A stretch of DNA of 39,061 nucleotides from an uncultured Spirochaetaceae bacterium (GTDB lineage Bacteria > Spirochaetota > Spirochaetia > Sphaerochaetales > Sphaerochaetaceae). Both the position numbers and the translations under genes were made by a program. The notes under the pieces were generated by a model. The model was not told the origin of the DNA and did not search any database. It worked only from the letters and a program-made list of their open reading frames with translations. The stretch lies in NCBI GenBank assembly GCA_944392935.1, contig CALXYI010000011.1, positions 1-39,061 on the forward strand. Reading direction: 5' to 3'. This document shows positions 1 through 37,116 of this stretch, one piece after another (within the stretch, counting starts at the first letter, position 1; the number at the start of each line of letters is the position of its first letter).

Positions 1-64
1 CATTCTGGACACAGATAAGTTCCGCTACCATCTTGCGAAACTGCCTTGAGTACCTCTTTGGCAT
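1..64 (-). CDS. IS3-type transposase OrfA, N-terminal fragment (cut by window edge)
   Basis: Reading the minus strand from the ATG at 64 gives 21 residues beginning MPKRYSRQFRKMVAEL. That is the usual opening of the helix-turn-helix OrfA protein of IS3-family elements, which binds the element ends as part of the transposase. A good ribosome binding site, AGGAGG, lies at 71-76, seven bases before the start. The rest of the gene is beyond the window edge, so it cannot be said whether the element is intact. The family assignment rests on this short stretch only. Confidence 0.6.
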   Translation of the reverse strand, partial: MPKRYSRQFRKMVAELICVQN

Positions 65-141
65 CTTTCCCTCCTAAGTGAGTGTTATACCCTTAAAAAC
101 CCGTGTCTACTAAAAAAGGAAAGCTCAGGGGAGGGTATTGC

Positions 142-171
142 TTGACAAGTCACTACGGGGGGGGGTAGTCT
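142..171 (+). promoter_or_regulatory. Promoter with a G9 run as its spacer
   Basis: A perfect -35 box TTGACA lies at 142-147. Nine consecutive G residues occupy 157-165, followed directly by TAGTCTATAT, which offers a -10 at 166-171 (TAGTCT, 18-bp spacing). A transcript would start near 178-180, leaving a 5' leader of about 25 bases before the lipoprotein ATG at 205. Gain or loss of one G would change the spacing to 19 or 17 bp and so alter promoter strength. The -10 box is only a moderate match. Confidence 0.65.
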
Positions 172-204: not shown

Positions 205-1041
205 ATGAAAAGGATTTCGATTGTTCTTCTTGCAGTCGCTATGCTCTTTGCATTCGCATCATGCGACAATTCGACGCCAACGGATGTAAGCAAGGTATAC
301 GCCTATAGCGAGGATCAGCTTGTTGCTTATATGTCCAATTCCGCAGTGAAGTCTGTTACGATTGTCGGCGAGATCACGCTTTCAGCGCCTGTCGATATCA
401 CGGCAGATGGCTTTGAGCTTGTAGGTGCAGAGGGAAGCAAGCTTACTATTTCACATGATGATGAGCTGATCCAGGAAAACGGAAATGCATCCGGCATGAT
501 TGATGTAAAAGCGGATAATGTCTCCATCAGGAATATCGATATAGAGATTCCAGCTGATTCGGCTCTTATCAATATCATCTATACGAATAACACCGGCCTC
601 ACAGTTGCGGATTCCTCCTTTGCATGGCTTGGCGAGGTCGCAGATTATGATTCCGTGGCTCAGTCCAAGATCAATCAGGCAATCTGCATCGATAGCAACG
701 GCAGCGCATCCATAATCGGAACAAGCTTCAGGAATGCAGTGACACCGGTATATGCAAGCAGCCCTGATGTAAAGGTTGATAACTGCAGGTTCAATTCCGG
801 AATCGAATTCGAGACCATCAGCGAGGCCAGCGCCGTCGTGAATTGCTCTCCTGTCGGGGAAGGCGAAGTGCTTGGAACCGCAAAAGTAGGTGTATGGTAT
901 GGCGAAGCAAGTGCAACTGCCCCCACTGAAGAAGCAGCCAAGGCTTTCCTTGATTCTGTTTCCGGTGACGATATCATAACAAGGCTCTGGAATGGATCCG
1001 ACTATACGGAATATCCTGCAGCCGCAGGTGATGCACAGTAA
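205..1041 (+). CDS. Surface lipoprotein, probable right-handed beta-helix
   Basis: The product is a 278-residue lipoprotein of unknown function. The start is the ATG at 205, placed by GGAGG at 193-197 with 7-base spacing; the TTG at 199 is less likely. The first 18 residues form a lipoprotein signal, with Lys-Arg, a hydrophobic core and then FASC, so Cys18 would be lipidated. The body has regularly spaced short strands (VKADNVSIRNIDIEI, LINIIYTNNTGLTVADS, NQAICIDSNGSASIIG, VYASSPDVKVDNCRF) like the rungs of a pectate-lyase-type beta-helix, a fold common in adhesins and polysaccharide-binding proteins. It would sit in the outer membrane or periplasm. Expression probably depends on the G9 promoter just upstream. 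Lipoprotein status is well supported; the beta-helix is inferred from the repeat pattern. Confidence 0.8.
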   Translation: MKRISIVLLAVAMLFAFASCDNSTPTDVSKVYAYSEDQLVAYMSNSAVKSVTIVGEITLSAPVDITADGFELVGAEGSKLTISHDDELIQENGNASGMIDVKADNVSIRNIDIEIPADSALINIIYTNNTGLTVADSSFAWLGEVADYDSVAQSKINQAICIDSNGSASIIGTSFRNAVTPVYASSPDVKVDNCRFNSGIEFETISEASAVVNCSPVGEGEVLGTAKVGVWYGEASATAPTEEAAKAFLDSVSGDDIITRLWNGSDYTEYPAAAGDAQ

Positions 1042-4923: not shown

Positions 4924-5407
4924 TCAGCTTCCTTGCTTCGTCAATGTCGCTGTAGTAAGTCCGCTCGCACTTGGTGAAGAACTCTGGTTGTTGATTGTCA
5001 TGATTGCTGTTGTCTCGCTCTGCTTCCTTATCACGATATCGGAACTCTGGGAATATCCATTTCTCGATACAGAGTAGCTGACCCTGTACAGCTCATCCGT
5101 CGCTTCTTCAGAGAAAGAAGTCATGTATGGCTCATTCAGCTTCAGATTCGTTGCTAGGTCGTAATTGAGCTGTAATTGTGGGATGCTTACGTATATCTGG
5201 CCATTGTTGAACCGCAGTTCAATGGCTCCCGATGATGACGGATCAGAGATTGTTCCCGTCCATGTGCCTTCGAGCCAGCTCTTGTAGCTGAAGCGGTCCG
5301 GTACGCTTGCAGGCGTCTTGTCATTGCACGAGGTGATAACGGCAACGGCCATTATCAGGACGATTGCGAGCAGGGCATATCTGCCCCCCCCATGAGGTTT
5401 TCTTCAT
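4924..5407 (-). CDS. Lipoprotein with G8 tract after the start codon, out of frame here
   Basis: An excellent start site (GGAGG at 5414-5418, six bases before the ATG at 5407) reads MKKTSW and then enters eight G residues (5384-5391 on this strand). With eight G the frame ends after 24 codons. With seven (or ten) G the frame continues as GGRYALLAIVLI, then MAVAVITSC, then a body running to 4924. That is a complete lipoprotein signal with lipobox ITSC and a mature domain of about 135 residues. The mature part contains WLEGTWTGTISDP, AIELRFNNGQIYVSIP and IVIRKQSETTAIMTIN, suggesting a small lipocalin-like beta barrel. The alternative start at 5352 has no binding site and no basic N-terminus. 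As sequenced the gene is OFF, through either phase variation or a sequencing error. Confidence 0.75.
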
Positions 5408-33496: not shown

Positions 33497-33824
33497 CAGG
33501 CCCTCCTTCATCTCCCGTGACAACTGCGATCACCTTGTTCGGAAGGCAGCAGAGGGTGCGTGACCAGCCTGATTCGATGCAGGTCTTCCCAGGGCATGGA
33601 GAGGAGACGACACGCGCCCTTCCATCCCTTATCTCTATCTCCGTCTCACCCAGCGGGCCAGGGAAGCTGTATATGCCGTCGCTGTCCATCGAGTATGCAT
33701 AGCCGCCGCTCTCCGTCGATACCTCGAGCGTGCTGCTCCCCCGCGGGATGAATGCAAGCGAGAGCACGGTCAGGGCCACGTAGATCAGGAAGATGATGAT
33801 GTCCCCGGCTTTCACCCTGTGCAT
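33480..33824 (-). CDS. NusG domain II-containing membrane-anchored protein
   Basis: The protein has 114 residues from the ATG at 33824 (MHRVKAGDIIIFLIYVALT). One N-terminal membrane helix is followed by a small beta domain with SSPCPGKTCIESGW and LCCLPNKVIAVV, the typical NusG-II-like family signature. The conserved cysteines may bind a redox group or metal. Function is unknown; the family is regularly encoded beside Gx transporters, as here. There is no ribosome binding site. The promoter at 33831-33859 would start the message at the ATG. The long upstream extension of the frame is not protein-like. Confidence 0.8.
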   Translation of the reverse strand: MHRVKAGDIIIFLIYVALTVLSLAFIPRGSSTLEVSTESGGYAYSMDSDGIYSFPGPLGETEIEIRDGRARVVSSPCPGKTCIESGWSRTLCCLPNKVIAVVTGDEGGPDAVSG

Positions 33825-33830
33825 ACGGAG

Positions 33831-33859
33831 ATGATAAATCTTCCGGGCTGCGCTGAAAA
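33831..33859 (-). promoter_or_regulatory. Promoter giving a leaderless NusG-II message
   Basis: On the minus strand TTTTCA (33854-33859), a 17-bp spacer and TATCAT (33831-33836) are followed by six bases and then the ATG at 33824. Confidence 0.5.
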
Positions 33860-34015
33860 GCTGCTGTCCGGCAGCTTCGCAGCGATGCCTGTGTGCCATG
33901 CTCCAAGGTCCTGCTTCATATTGCGGGGCCGGAGGATGATGCAGCAATGATCCGGCAGAAGCAGGGGAGATGCGGAGGGATCATGGCAAAGTGGCAATCG
34001 TCTTGTGTAGATATG

Positions 34016-34074
34016 TGTTGAATCAGCCTGCTGTGTGTATTCATCGCCGCTCTGTGTTCGTTTATGTTGAATCA
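34016..34074 (+). promoter_or_regulatory. Pair of 10-bp direct repeats upstream of the response regulators
   Basis: TGTTGAATCA occurs at 34016-34025 and again at 34065-34074, 49 bp apart, within 100 bp of the first regulator gene. OmpR-family proteins bind direct repeats, so these may be autoregulatory sites. The second copy also supplies a possible -35 (TTGAAT). Confidence 0.4.
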
Positions 34075-34104
34075 TGTGTGGTTCTGGGTTAAGAAAATCG
34101 GGAG

Positions 34105-34827
34105 ATGGCGTATGTTTATGTGGCTGATGGGGATGCACCCATACGGCTCAGGCTCCAGCAGTATCTTGGGATCTACGGCTATTCGGCAGTCGGGTTCGAT
34201 TATCTCTCGGACCTTGGGCGTGCGCTGCAGAAGACAGCGCCGGATCTCCTTGTCATGGAGCTGGAATTCGAGGATGGAGACGGGCTCTCGTTCCTGAAGC
34301 AGGTTGCGCAGAAGTACCGCTTCCCGGTGATCATAGCATCCGCACGCAGCAGCGAGAGCGACAGGATAATGAGCTTCGAGTTCGGATGCGATGATTTCGT
34401 TGCCAAGCCCTATTCGATGCTTGAGGTGACGCTCCGCGCCTCTGCGGTCCTGCGCCGCCGCCGCATGAAGGCAGCTGAGAACTCGAGGTGGTATATCCGT
34501 TCCACATGCCTTTCCATCAACTGGGATGCCCACATCGCGACGCTCTCGCATATAGATGGCGGATCTACAGGGGGGGGGGTACAGGAGATACGCTTCACCG
34601 CCTCGGAGTGGAAGATCCTCGTCTTCCTCGTCTCCAATGCAGGCCGCCTCGTATCGAGGCTGCAGCTGCTGCAGTCATGCTTTCCAGAGAGTCTCGAGAG
34701 CTACGACAGGATAATAGACACGCACATAAAGAACATCCGCTCCAAGTTCGGCCCCGGAGGGTCGGAATGGATAGAGACCGTCAGGGGCTACGGCTACCGC
34801 TTCCGCGGTTCCCTGTCGCCAATGTGA
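34105..34827 (+). CDS. Atypical OmpR-type response regulator with G10 tract
   Basis: The 240-residue protein has a receiver domain (1-118) and a winged-helix DNA-binding domain (about 135-236, ending DTHIKNIRSKF and ETVRGYGYRF). The phospho-acceptor position is Glu52 (LLVMELEFEDGDG), where its downstream paralogue has Asp52. The conserved Thr is Ser79, while Lys101 is kept. Glu can mimic phospho-Asp, so the protein may be active without a kinase. A run of ten G encodes Gly156-Gly158 and part of Val159 in a hairpin turn that the paralogue lacks. The gene is in frame here. Loss of one G would end the protein before the recognition helix. GGGAG abuts the ATG directly, so initiation is weak or leaderless. 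Confidence 0.88.
   Translation: MAYVYVADGDAPIRLRLQQYLGIYGYSAVGFDYLSDLGRALQKTAPDLLVMELEFEDGDGLSFLKQVAQKYRFPVIIASARSSESDRIMSFEFGCDDFVAKPYSMLEVTLRASAVLRRRRMKAAENSRWYIRSTCLSINWDAHIATLSHIDGGSTGGGVQEIRFTASEWKILVFLVSNAGRLVSRLQLLQSCFPESLESYDRIIDTHIKNIRSKFGPGGSEWIETVRGYGYRFRGSLSPM
34570..34579 (+). repeat. G10 mononucleotide tract inside a regulator gene
   Basis: Ten consecutive G lie between TACA and TACAGGAG. The reading frame passes through as GGG GGG GGG G. With nine G the frame stops at TAA after 43 codons. With eleven G it runs out of frame to about 34901. Either change removes the DNA-binding domain. Confidence 0.9.
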
Positions 34828-34913
34828 AGCATGCCGCGGATATTCTGTTTTTTGAATGTAGTTCCCTCTATTCATCTTGCCTTTGCATAACGTATGCATG
34901 AAACTCCATCTGT

Positions 34914-35606
34914 ATGAAGCTGATATATATCGTCGAGGATCATGATGTAATCCGCAATGGAGTCGTGCAGTATCTGACCCTTTCAGGCTATGAGGCGAAG
35001 GGGCTGAAGAACCTTGAGGAAGCCGAGGGGGCATTCGGGGAGGCCGTTCCCGATCTCCTCATCCAGGATGTCATGCTTCCCGACGGGGATGGCTTCACGT
35101 TCGTGAAGGGCATAAAGCAGCGCTTCCCGCGCATCCCCGTGATCTTCCTTACCGCACGCACTGAGGAATCCGACAGGATCCTCGGCTTCGAGCTCGGAGC
35201 CGATGACTATATCTCGAAGCCCTTCAGCCCTAAGGAGCTGGTGCTGCGCATCCAGGCGCTCTTCCGCCGCATCGATGAGTCGGATACGCCGCATGACAAT
35301 GTCTACGCATACAGCGACAGCGAGAACACGATGGTGATAGATGACAATGAGCATGTGCTCTCCATCAACGGCACGCCTGTCTCCCTCACTGCCGCGGAGT
35401 GGAGGATCGTCTTCTATCTGGCATCGAACGCCCCGAACCTCATAACGCGCTCCCAGATACTCGAGGAGTGCTTCGATTACAGCTTCGAGAGCTATGAGAG
35501 GGTTGTCGACACCCACATAAAGAACATCAGGGCAAAGCTGAAGCCCGGGACATGGATCGACACGGTACGCGGCTACGGCTACCGGTTCTCCGGCAAGAAG
35601 GCATAG
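34914..35606 (+). CDS. OmpR-type response regulator
   Basis: The 230-residue regulator has a canonical receiver (acidic pocket Glu8-Asp9, phospho-acceptor Asp52 in LLIQDVMLPDGDG, Thr80, Lys102) and a winged-helix output domain ending VVDTHIKNIRAKL and DTVRGYGYRF. It is a close paralogue of the preceding regulator and is followed by one base and then the histidine kinase gene, so it is the kinase's main partner. No binding site precedes the ATG. The 86-bp gap from the previous gene holds no clear terminator, so the three genes may be co-transcribed. Confidence 0.95.
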   Translation: MKLIYIVEDHDVIRNGVVQYLTLSGYEAKGLKNLEEAEGAFGEAVPDLLIQDVMLPDGDGFTFVKGIKQRFPRIPVIFLTARTEESDRILGFELGADDYISKPFSPKELVLRIQALFRRIDESDTPHDNVYAYSDSENTMVIDDNEHVLSINGTPVSLTAAEWRIVFYLASNAPNLITRSQILEECFDYSFESYERVVDTHIKNIRAKLKPGTWIDTVRGYGYRFSGKKA

Positions 35607-35607
35607 G

Positions 35608-37116
35608 ATGCGGAATCAGTTCTTCCGTTTCTTCATCTCGATATTCCTCATATCGCTCGCTGTCATACTCGTGCAGTGCTGCTTCATATTCGTGGGGAAC
35701 ATGCGCGTTGCAGGACTCTGGAAGGACATGGTGTTCGAGGAATTCGCCTCGTCGGTGAGATCCTCGGTCGAGGGGCTCTCCGATGCAGGCAGCGACAGCG
35801 TGATGAACCTGATGGTATCGCGCACATCCGAGCGTATCTCAGGGCTTCTCTTCCGCGATCAGAGCGGGAGGTACATTCTCTCGCTGGGCGCATCATCCGC
35901 GGGCGAGCAGCTTCCGTCACCGGAGGCAAGGAGAAGCGTCATCACGGCAGTCCCGTCAGGGCGCTTCAAGCTCAACTACCAGCGCTCCATCTCCTATATC
36001 GATGTGGATATCCCGGCACCCAAGTACTCCATATCGATCGATACGGATCCTTTCACCGGGCTTCCGCGCTCTATATCCTTCGATAAAGTGGAGGGCGGGG
36101 AGGATATGCTCGTCTCGCTGCCGTCCATCGTAGCCGATCAGGATATCGCGGGAACGATAATGATAATCGCAGACGGCAGCATCGCAGGATACATCGATGT
36201 CCTTGTCTACAGGATAGACTACTATGCGCCGACGACATTCGCCCTGAAGAACCTCTTCGGGGCATTTCTCCTCTCGCTCCCGATCGCCCTTGTGATATCA
36301 GCGGTCCTTGCGGCAATCGTCTCCCGCAAGAACGACAGGAGCGTCAAGGAGATAAGGAATTCGCTCTCCAGGCTCTCGCTCGGATACTTCGATGTCAGCC
36401 TTCCCCGGCAGTCCACGGAGGAGATGCAGCAGATCGCTGATTCCATCACCGCACTTGGAAAGGACCTTTCGCGCCATCAGAAGTCGAGGAAGGAATGGAT
36501 CAGGAACATCTCCCACGACCTCAACACCCCTGTCACGAGCATAAACCTCCTCGTCAACGGTGCCCTTGACGGCATGTTCCCTCTGGACGGGAAGCTCCTG
36601 GAGGAGCTCAAGAAGGAGACTGATACCCTCACCGGCCGCATACAGTCGGTGGCGCAGTATTCATATCTCCTCTCACCCGATGCCAGGGCGGAGAAGAAGG
36701 ATGTATCGATACTCGAGACAGCAGACGGAGTCCTGCAGAGCGAGAAGATGGATGCCCTGATCCCCGCTGATGATATGACAGTATATGCAGACCCGAAGCT
36801 CCTTGAGAAAGCGCTCCGCGAGGTGCTGAGGAATGCCAGGACATATGGATCAGGGGAAGGCAGTCCCCGGCTGTCGTTCCGCCGCGGCGATGATGGGAAG
36901 ACGGTCATAGAAGTCACCAATTCCGGGCATCTCCCGTCCCCGCTCCCGCAGTTCTTCGAGCCATGGGCCCGCGGCGATGCCTCCCGCACGGCAGGGGGAT
37001 CAGGCCTCGGCCTCCCGATAGTCTACCAGATCATGGAACTGCACGGAGGAAGTGTGAGGATAGGGGAGAGCGACGGCAATGTGACAGTCACGCTCGCATT
37101 CCCAGGGAAAGCATGA
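35608..37116 (+). CDS. Membrane sensor histidine kinase
   Basis: The 502-residue protein has membrane helices at about 8-30 and 215-239 flanking a periplasmic sensor domain of about 185 residues. A HAMP linker follows, then the dimerisation helix with phospho-acceptor His303 (RNISHDLNTPVTSI), the N box (REVLRNARTYG) and G boxes (ASRTAGGSGLGLPIV). It phosphorylates the adjacent regulator in response to an unknown envelope signal. The HDLNTP form is a known variant of the usual HELRTP. The 3' end overlaps the convergent phosphoesterase gene by 29 bp. Confidence 0.94.
   Translation: MRNQFFRFFISIFLISLAVILVQCCFIFVGNMRVAGLWKDMVFEEFASSVRSSVEGLSDAGSDSVMNLMVSRTSERISGLLFRDQSGRYILSLGASSAGEQLPSPEARRSVITAVPSGRFKLNYQRSISYIDVDIPAPKYSISIDTDPFTGLPRSISFDKVEGGEDMLVSLPSIVADQDIAGTIMIIADGSIAGYIDVLVYRIDYYAPTTFALKNLFGAFLLSLPIALVISAVLAAIVSRKNDRSVKEIRNSLSRLSLGYFDVSLPRQSTEEMQQIADSITALGKDLSRHQKSRKEWIRNISHDLNTPVTSINLLVNGALDGMFPLDGKLLEELKKETDTLTGRIQSVAQYSYLLSPDARAEKKDVSILETADGVLQSEKMDALIPADDMTVYADPKLLEKALREVLRNARTYGSGEGSPRLSFRRGDDGKTVIEVTNSGHLPSPLPQFFEPWARGDASRTAGGSGLGLPIVYQIMELHGGSVRIGESDGNVTVTLAFPGKA

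Follow-up and report, generated by a model that had tools for sequence, protein, structure and literature searches.

RR1, an OmpR/PhoB-type response regulator gene with a run of ten G in the part that encodes its DNA-binding domain, probably encodes a phase-variable, phosphorylation-independent regulator. The gene lies in a stretch of 39,061 nucleotides from an uncultured Spirochaetaceae bacterium, which was analysed as a whole and is called the window below (Table 1). Slipped-strand mispairing of the in-frame poly-G, placed in a tolerant loop, would toggle the DNA-binding domain of RR1. The source of the window is a fragmented draft assembly in 66 contigs, and one assembly per species was compared.

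Table 1. Coordinates in the window of RR1, its neighbours and the poly-G loci
Feature	Position	Strand	Details
G9 tract	157-165	+	TTGACA (142-147) on one side, a TAGTCT -10-like box on the other; precedes a lipoprotein gene
Lipoprotein gene (MKRISIVLLAVAMLFAFASC)	205-1038	+	Behind the poly-G promoter
G8 tract (C8 on the + strand)	5384-5391	-	Within the signal-peptide region of a lipoprotein gene (about 5407-4924)
RR1, OmpR/PhoB-type response regulator, bearing the G10 tract	34105-34827	+	Pfam Response_reg and Trans_reg_C
G10 tract (GGGGGGGGGG)	34570-34579	+	RR1 codons 156-158 plus the opening G of codon 159
RR2, canonical OmpR/PhoB response regulator	34914-35606	+	Asp retained; without tract or loop
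Sensor histidine kinase	35608-37116	+	HisKA and HATPase_c; third in the RR1-RR2-HK cluster

The G10 tract and the regulator that carries it

RR1 is 240 aa long, with Response_reg (PF00072) at residues 4-107 and Trans_reg_C (PF00486) at residues 160-233 in Pfam. Both the receiver and the C-terminal winged helix of the family are present, and the best fold matches are OmpR/PhoB-type structures. The G10 run, flanked by ACA on one side and TACAG on the other, is the longest homopolymer in the window and its sole run of 10. A sequence-only reading of this DNA had placed the tract in frame in the DNA-binding part of the gene, in a turn missing from the paralogue RR2. The sequence bears this out: codons 156-158 read GGG GGG GGG, and the tenth G opens GTA (Val159). 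In an AlphaFold2 model of RR1 (mean pLDDT 86), residues 156-159 (GGGV) form the loop between strands 144-149 and 160-162, ahead of the first helix of the winged helix. Confidence in the model is lowest at this loop, with a pLDDT below 50 for residues 153-156, and the loop, which opens the DNA-binding domain, is predicted to be disordered.

The same reading held that one G lost or gained would remove the winged helix, and simulation agrees. Removing one G gives a 202-aa product and adding one gives 265 aa, and the winged helix-turn-helix is gone from both. As in a contingency locus, the repeat is pure and a change by a single unit destroys the predicted product. Two other kinds of element were considered and rejected. 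An internal promoter at the G10 run found no support in a consensus scan of 33850-34960, which showed no TTGACA-like box at the right spacing. An upstream invertible switch was ruled out, as there are no inverted repeats of length 12 or more upstream of RR1 in 33500-34150.

In the alignment of the two regulators, the phosphoacceptor position of RR1 is Glu (MELEFEDGDG), as opposed to Asp in RR2 (QDVMLPDGDG). The Asp of a canonical phosphorylatable receiver is absent from RR1 and from its aligned orthologues (L032-L038), all of which have Glu. The active-site Lys101 (KPYS) is invariant. The Thr/Ser position is occupied by Ser in RR1 and its orthologues in the genus instead of the usual Thr, while RR2 is canonical here as at the phosphoacceptor. 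Glu at the phosphoacceptor site is a frequent mimic of phosphorylation. We predict that RR1 is a pseudo-receiver, with Glu in place of Asp, and this Glu suggests that RR1 may be constitutively active. In other genera of the family (L222-L243), the upstream member of tandem regulator pairs often has Glu at this site too, and the substitution may therefore predate the genus.

Placement of poly-G tracts in the genome and the genus

Chance expectations for G/C runs were obtained by synonymous codon resampling over 33.2 kb of window coding sequence. The resampled set comprised ORFs of at least 150 aa, which leaves out the out-of-frame lipoprotein gene with the G8 tract. Coding runs of at least 5 numbered 23, against 52 expected, and a single run of at least 6, the G10 of RR1, was observed against 11.1 expected. 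For runs of at least 9, one was observed and 0.16 expected, and for runs of at least 10 the expectation was 0.04, with the RR1 tract alone observed. Since runs of at least 6 fall far below the resampling expectation, long runs are avoided in genes, with RR1 the exception.

Extrapolated to the whole genome, and supposing that runs are not selected against, the expectation is about 1.9 coding runs of at least 10. The genome-wide figures come from pattern searches and from individual stretches of the genome. The 1.8-Mb genome contains 15 tracts of G9 or longer, and that of RR1 is the only intragenic one, judged from the flanks. A genome-wide excess of poly-G was rejected, since these 15 tracts are not above the expectation from base composition. 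As the genome count expected without avoidance is of the same order as that observed, the count alone is no proof; the weight rests on conservation and genomic context. The poly-G signal in this genome is one of placement, not of number.

The window contains three G/C runs of at least 8, all at places typical of phase variation. The lipoprotein gene with the G8 tract is out of frame at its assembled length, that is, OFF. Species G018 has a gene that shares this signal peptide, with 33% identity overall, and it too is out of frame, at G10.

Flanking sequence was read for about 75 tracts of G9-G12 from five species: G000 (the window's genome), G018, G006, G011 and G007. The majority have TTGAC on one side and a TA-box on the other, and precede lipoprotein signal-peptide genes by about 30-45 nt. 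These lipoprotein promoters, with poly-G as the spacer between -35 and -10, form a genus-wide family with at least eight members in the window's genome. Coding tracts in the genus are found in genes for an Mrr/ResIII restriction enzyme, HsdS, a glycosyltransferase, an epimerase and a lipoprotein; another lies in a gene with a weak match to a capsule-assembly (Wzi-like) protein. G006 has the restriction enzyme gene whole, with C9 on the coding strand, but in G011 it is split exactly at a G10 in the same position (L253, L276), and the assembled sequence indicates that it is caught OFF there. In four species a poly-G run precedes a PapD-like chaperone gene, at lengths of 11, 9, 10 and 10 (L014, L158, L266, L292); the gene was Pfam-tested in G000 only and matched in the other three by a common AYQLSPLN start. 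In this genus, many lipoprotein promoters appear to be phase-variable through poly-G.

An IS3-family element, whose second ORF carries HTH_21 and rve domains, apparently targets poly-G sites. A G9-G12 run starts 31-34 nt beyond the conserved IS3 end in 18 of 20 ends from seven species (L202-L221), and the DNA between the end and the run is different in each case. The remaining two are an end with an impure G-rich stretch at that place and a diverged end. IS elements that target REP sequences are known, including the IS3-family ISPsy8 and IS1397 (PMC1525189); our literature search found no title or abstract reporting poly-G as an IS target. The left edge of the window (1-125) is itself such an IS3 end, with a G9 beginning at 157. 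Contigs starting at such an end are many in G018 and two in G000, and contig breaks at IS3 ends are as expected of a repeated element.

Orthologues of RR1 and alternative readings of the tract

We searched for RR1 orthologues within the genus, in 48 species, and most of the genus is without the gene. The nearest orthologue, in G018, is 73% identical, and the others are less so. Mixed Gly codons in orthologues would count against a phase-variable tract. The G018 gene, the sole other carrier of the loop, has a pure G9 there, as the sequence-only reading required. This run is in another codon phase, and a one-base difference directly behind it, a compensating indel, restores the frame. The tract is therefore found in two species only, at G10 and G9, and is in frame in both; as in a contingency locus, the repeat is kept with a difference in length between these two carriers. 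In more distant orthologues the loop is absent, its place being taken by a short turn without a run of Gly.

Between the window's RR1 and that of G018, dS is about 2.5 (saturated) and dN 0.20, giving a dN/dS of about 0.08. The DNA-binding domain behind the tract has the lowest dN of the gene (0.10). This low dN despite saturated dS indicates purifying selection on the ON frame in both species. A pure run amid randomised third positions fits selection or recurrent slippage.

The run could also be a neutral Gly-rich loop, born by slippage in a tolerant turn and harmless there, in which frameshifts arise and are purged with no adaptive switching. The turn is variable and disordered, and the GGG usage of 23% in the window leads to about 1% for three consecutive GGG codons, which is not negligible genome-wide. 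Against this, the pure run has been retained in G018 despite saturated synonymous sites, shorter runs are strongly depleted in coding sequence and poly-G is used genus-wide at phase-variable types of gene. We regard a neutral loop as rather unlikely.

RR1 is frameshifted in three of ten relatives (G015, G016 and G024; L073, L066 and L039), but every one of the 45 genomes with an RR2 match has that gene open (p 0.005). A homopolymer was ruled out as the cause of these three frameshifts, which lie elsewhere in the gene. The pattern suggests that RR1 was lost repeatedly and independently among relatives. As RR1 is broken in species where RR2 is intact, OFF states are tolerated, and since RR1 can be lost, a reversible loss may pay. 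The broken copies and the absence of the gene from most of the genus would also agree with RR1 being en route to loss, the tract being one hazard under relaxed selection. The dN/dS of G000 against G018 and the very conserved DNA-binding domain argue otherwise and make such decay improbable.

Slippage might instead occur in transcription or translation, so that a single DNA sequence would give full-length and truncated RR1 at a fixed ratio. The homopolymer is in frame and both alternative frames give defined products. A shallow look identified no stimulatory element, however, and related coding tracts in the genus vary in DNA length and frame state, so that we hold this reading to be very improbable. 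An error in the assembled tract length, or a collapsed mixture, is hardly credible: homopolymers are error-prone and the draft is fragmented, but the reading frame continues unbroken into a conserved domain behind the tract, and in an independent species the same loop has a G9.

A phase-variable regulator of OmpR type, as the sequence-only reading had proposed, is thus retained in part. The proposal gains strong, though indirect, support from the G9 in G018, from the poly-G loci of the genus, some of them OFF, and from the losses of RR1. The exchange of Asp for Glu shows that RR1 is not of the ordinary OmpR type.

The proposed switch and known systems

Under the proposed phase variation, RR1 would be an accessory, kinase-independent transcription regulator of the OmpR/PhoB type with a Glu receiver. 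Its tract would slip often enough to matter in populations. ON cells would express the RR1 regulon constitutively, while OFF cells, with a receiver that lacks the winged helix, would not. This switching would have no effect, or a mild one, on RR2 and the kinase. With the tract inside a transcription regulator, one slippage event would alter many genes.

One close likeness is to CmrRST of Clostridioides difficile, which is phase variable and consists of two DNA-binding response regulators and one histidine kinase (PMC6837544). The phosphorylation site of one regulator, CmrT, is a Glu, and according to its authors CmrT may be considered a pseudoreceiver (PMC6837544). The RR1 cluster has the same RR-RR-HK gene set with one Glu receiver, and RR1 is likened to CmrT by this gene set and the Glu residue. 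CmrRST switches by inversion of upstream DNA, whereas RR1, with no inverted repeats of 12 or more upstream, would switch by a coding homopolymer. Because RR1 has a Glu receiver, as CmrT does, it may be switched by slippage and not by phosphorylation, and the receiver suggests a regulator with a genetic switch only.

We put forward one further step tentatively, as a possibility that we lean against. RR1 may be locked on, with slippage having replaced phosphorylation as its input, so that a random genetic switch would set a whole regulon in a genus that also seems to phase-vary lipoprotein promoters; RR1 may control those surface genes.

FlgR works with sigma-54 and does not belong to the OmpR class. 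The flgR and flgS genes of Campylobacter jejuni undergo homopolymer frameshifts, in poly-A/T tracts shorter than 7 that a review calls not reversible (PMC8355987). In flgR, as in RR1, a homopolymer frameshift affects a response regulator gene, but the tract is poly-A/T rather than poly-G (PMC8355987). The bvgS gene of Bordetella pertussis, as cited in PMC7241687, is a two-component gene with a coding G/C homopolymer in which a frameshift switches a regulon; from that citation, its tract lies in a sensor kinase, as opposed to the DNA-binding regulator of RR1. Phase-variable two-component genes (bvgS, flgR and cmrRST) are therefore already known, and RR1 is not a new kind of system.

Among spirochaetes, poly-G switching is known chiefly from surface genes of Treponema pallidum. 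According to the sections of PMC7864442 that deal with these tracts, poly-G tracts of about 7-11 in the tpr genes and tp0126 vary in vivo, most poly-G tracts of at least 8 vary in length within isolates, and the promoter spacing of tp0126 changes with the number of G. The tracts described in those sections are in surface-protein genes, and no transcription regulator with a coding tract is identified there (PMC7864442). A literature search found nothing combining Sphaerochaeta and phase variation. The poly-G promoter set described here belongs to uncultured relatives of Sphaerochaeta and Bullifex, and its lipoprotein promoters are arranged like that of tp0126 as presented in the same source, with poly-G in the promoter spacer.
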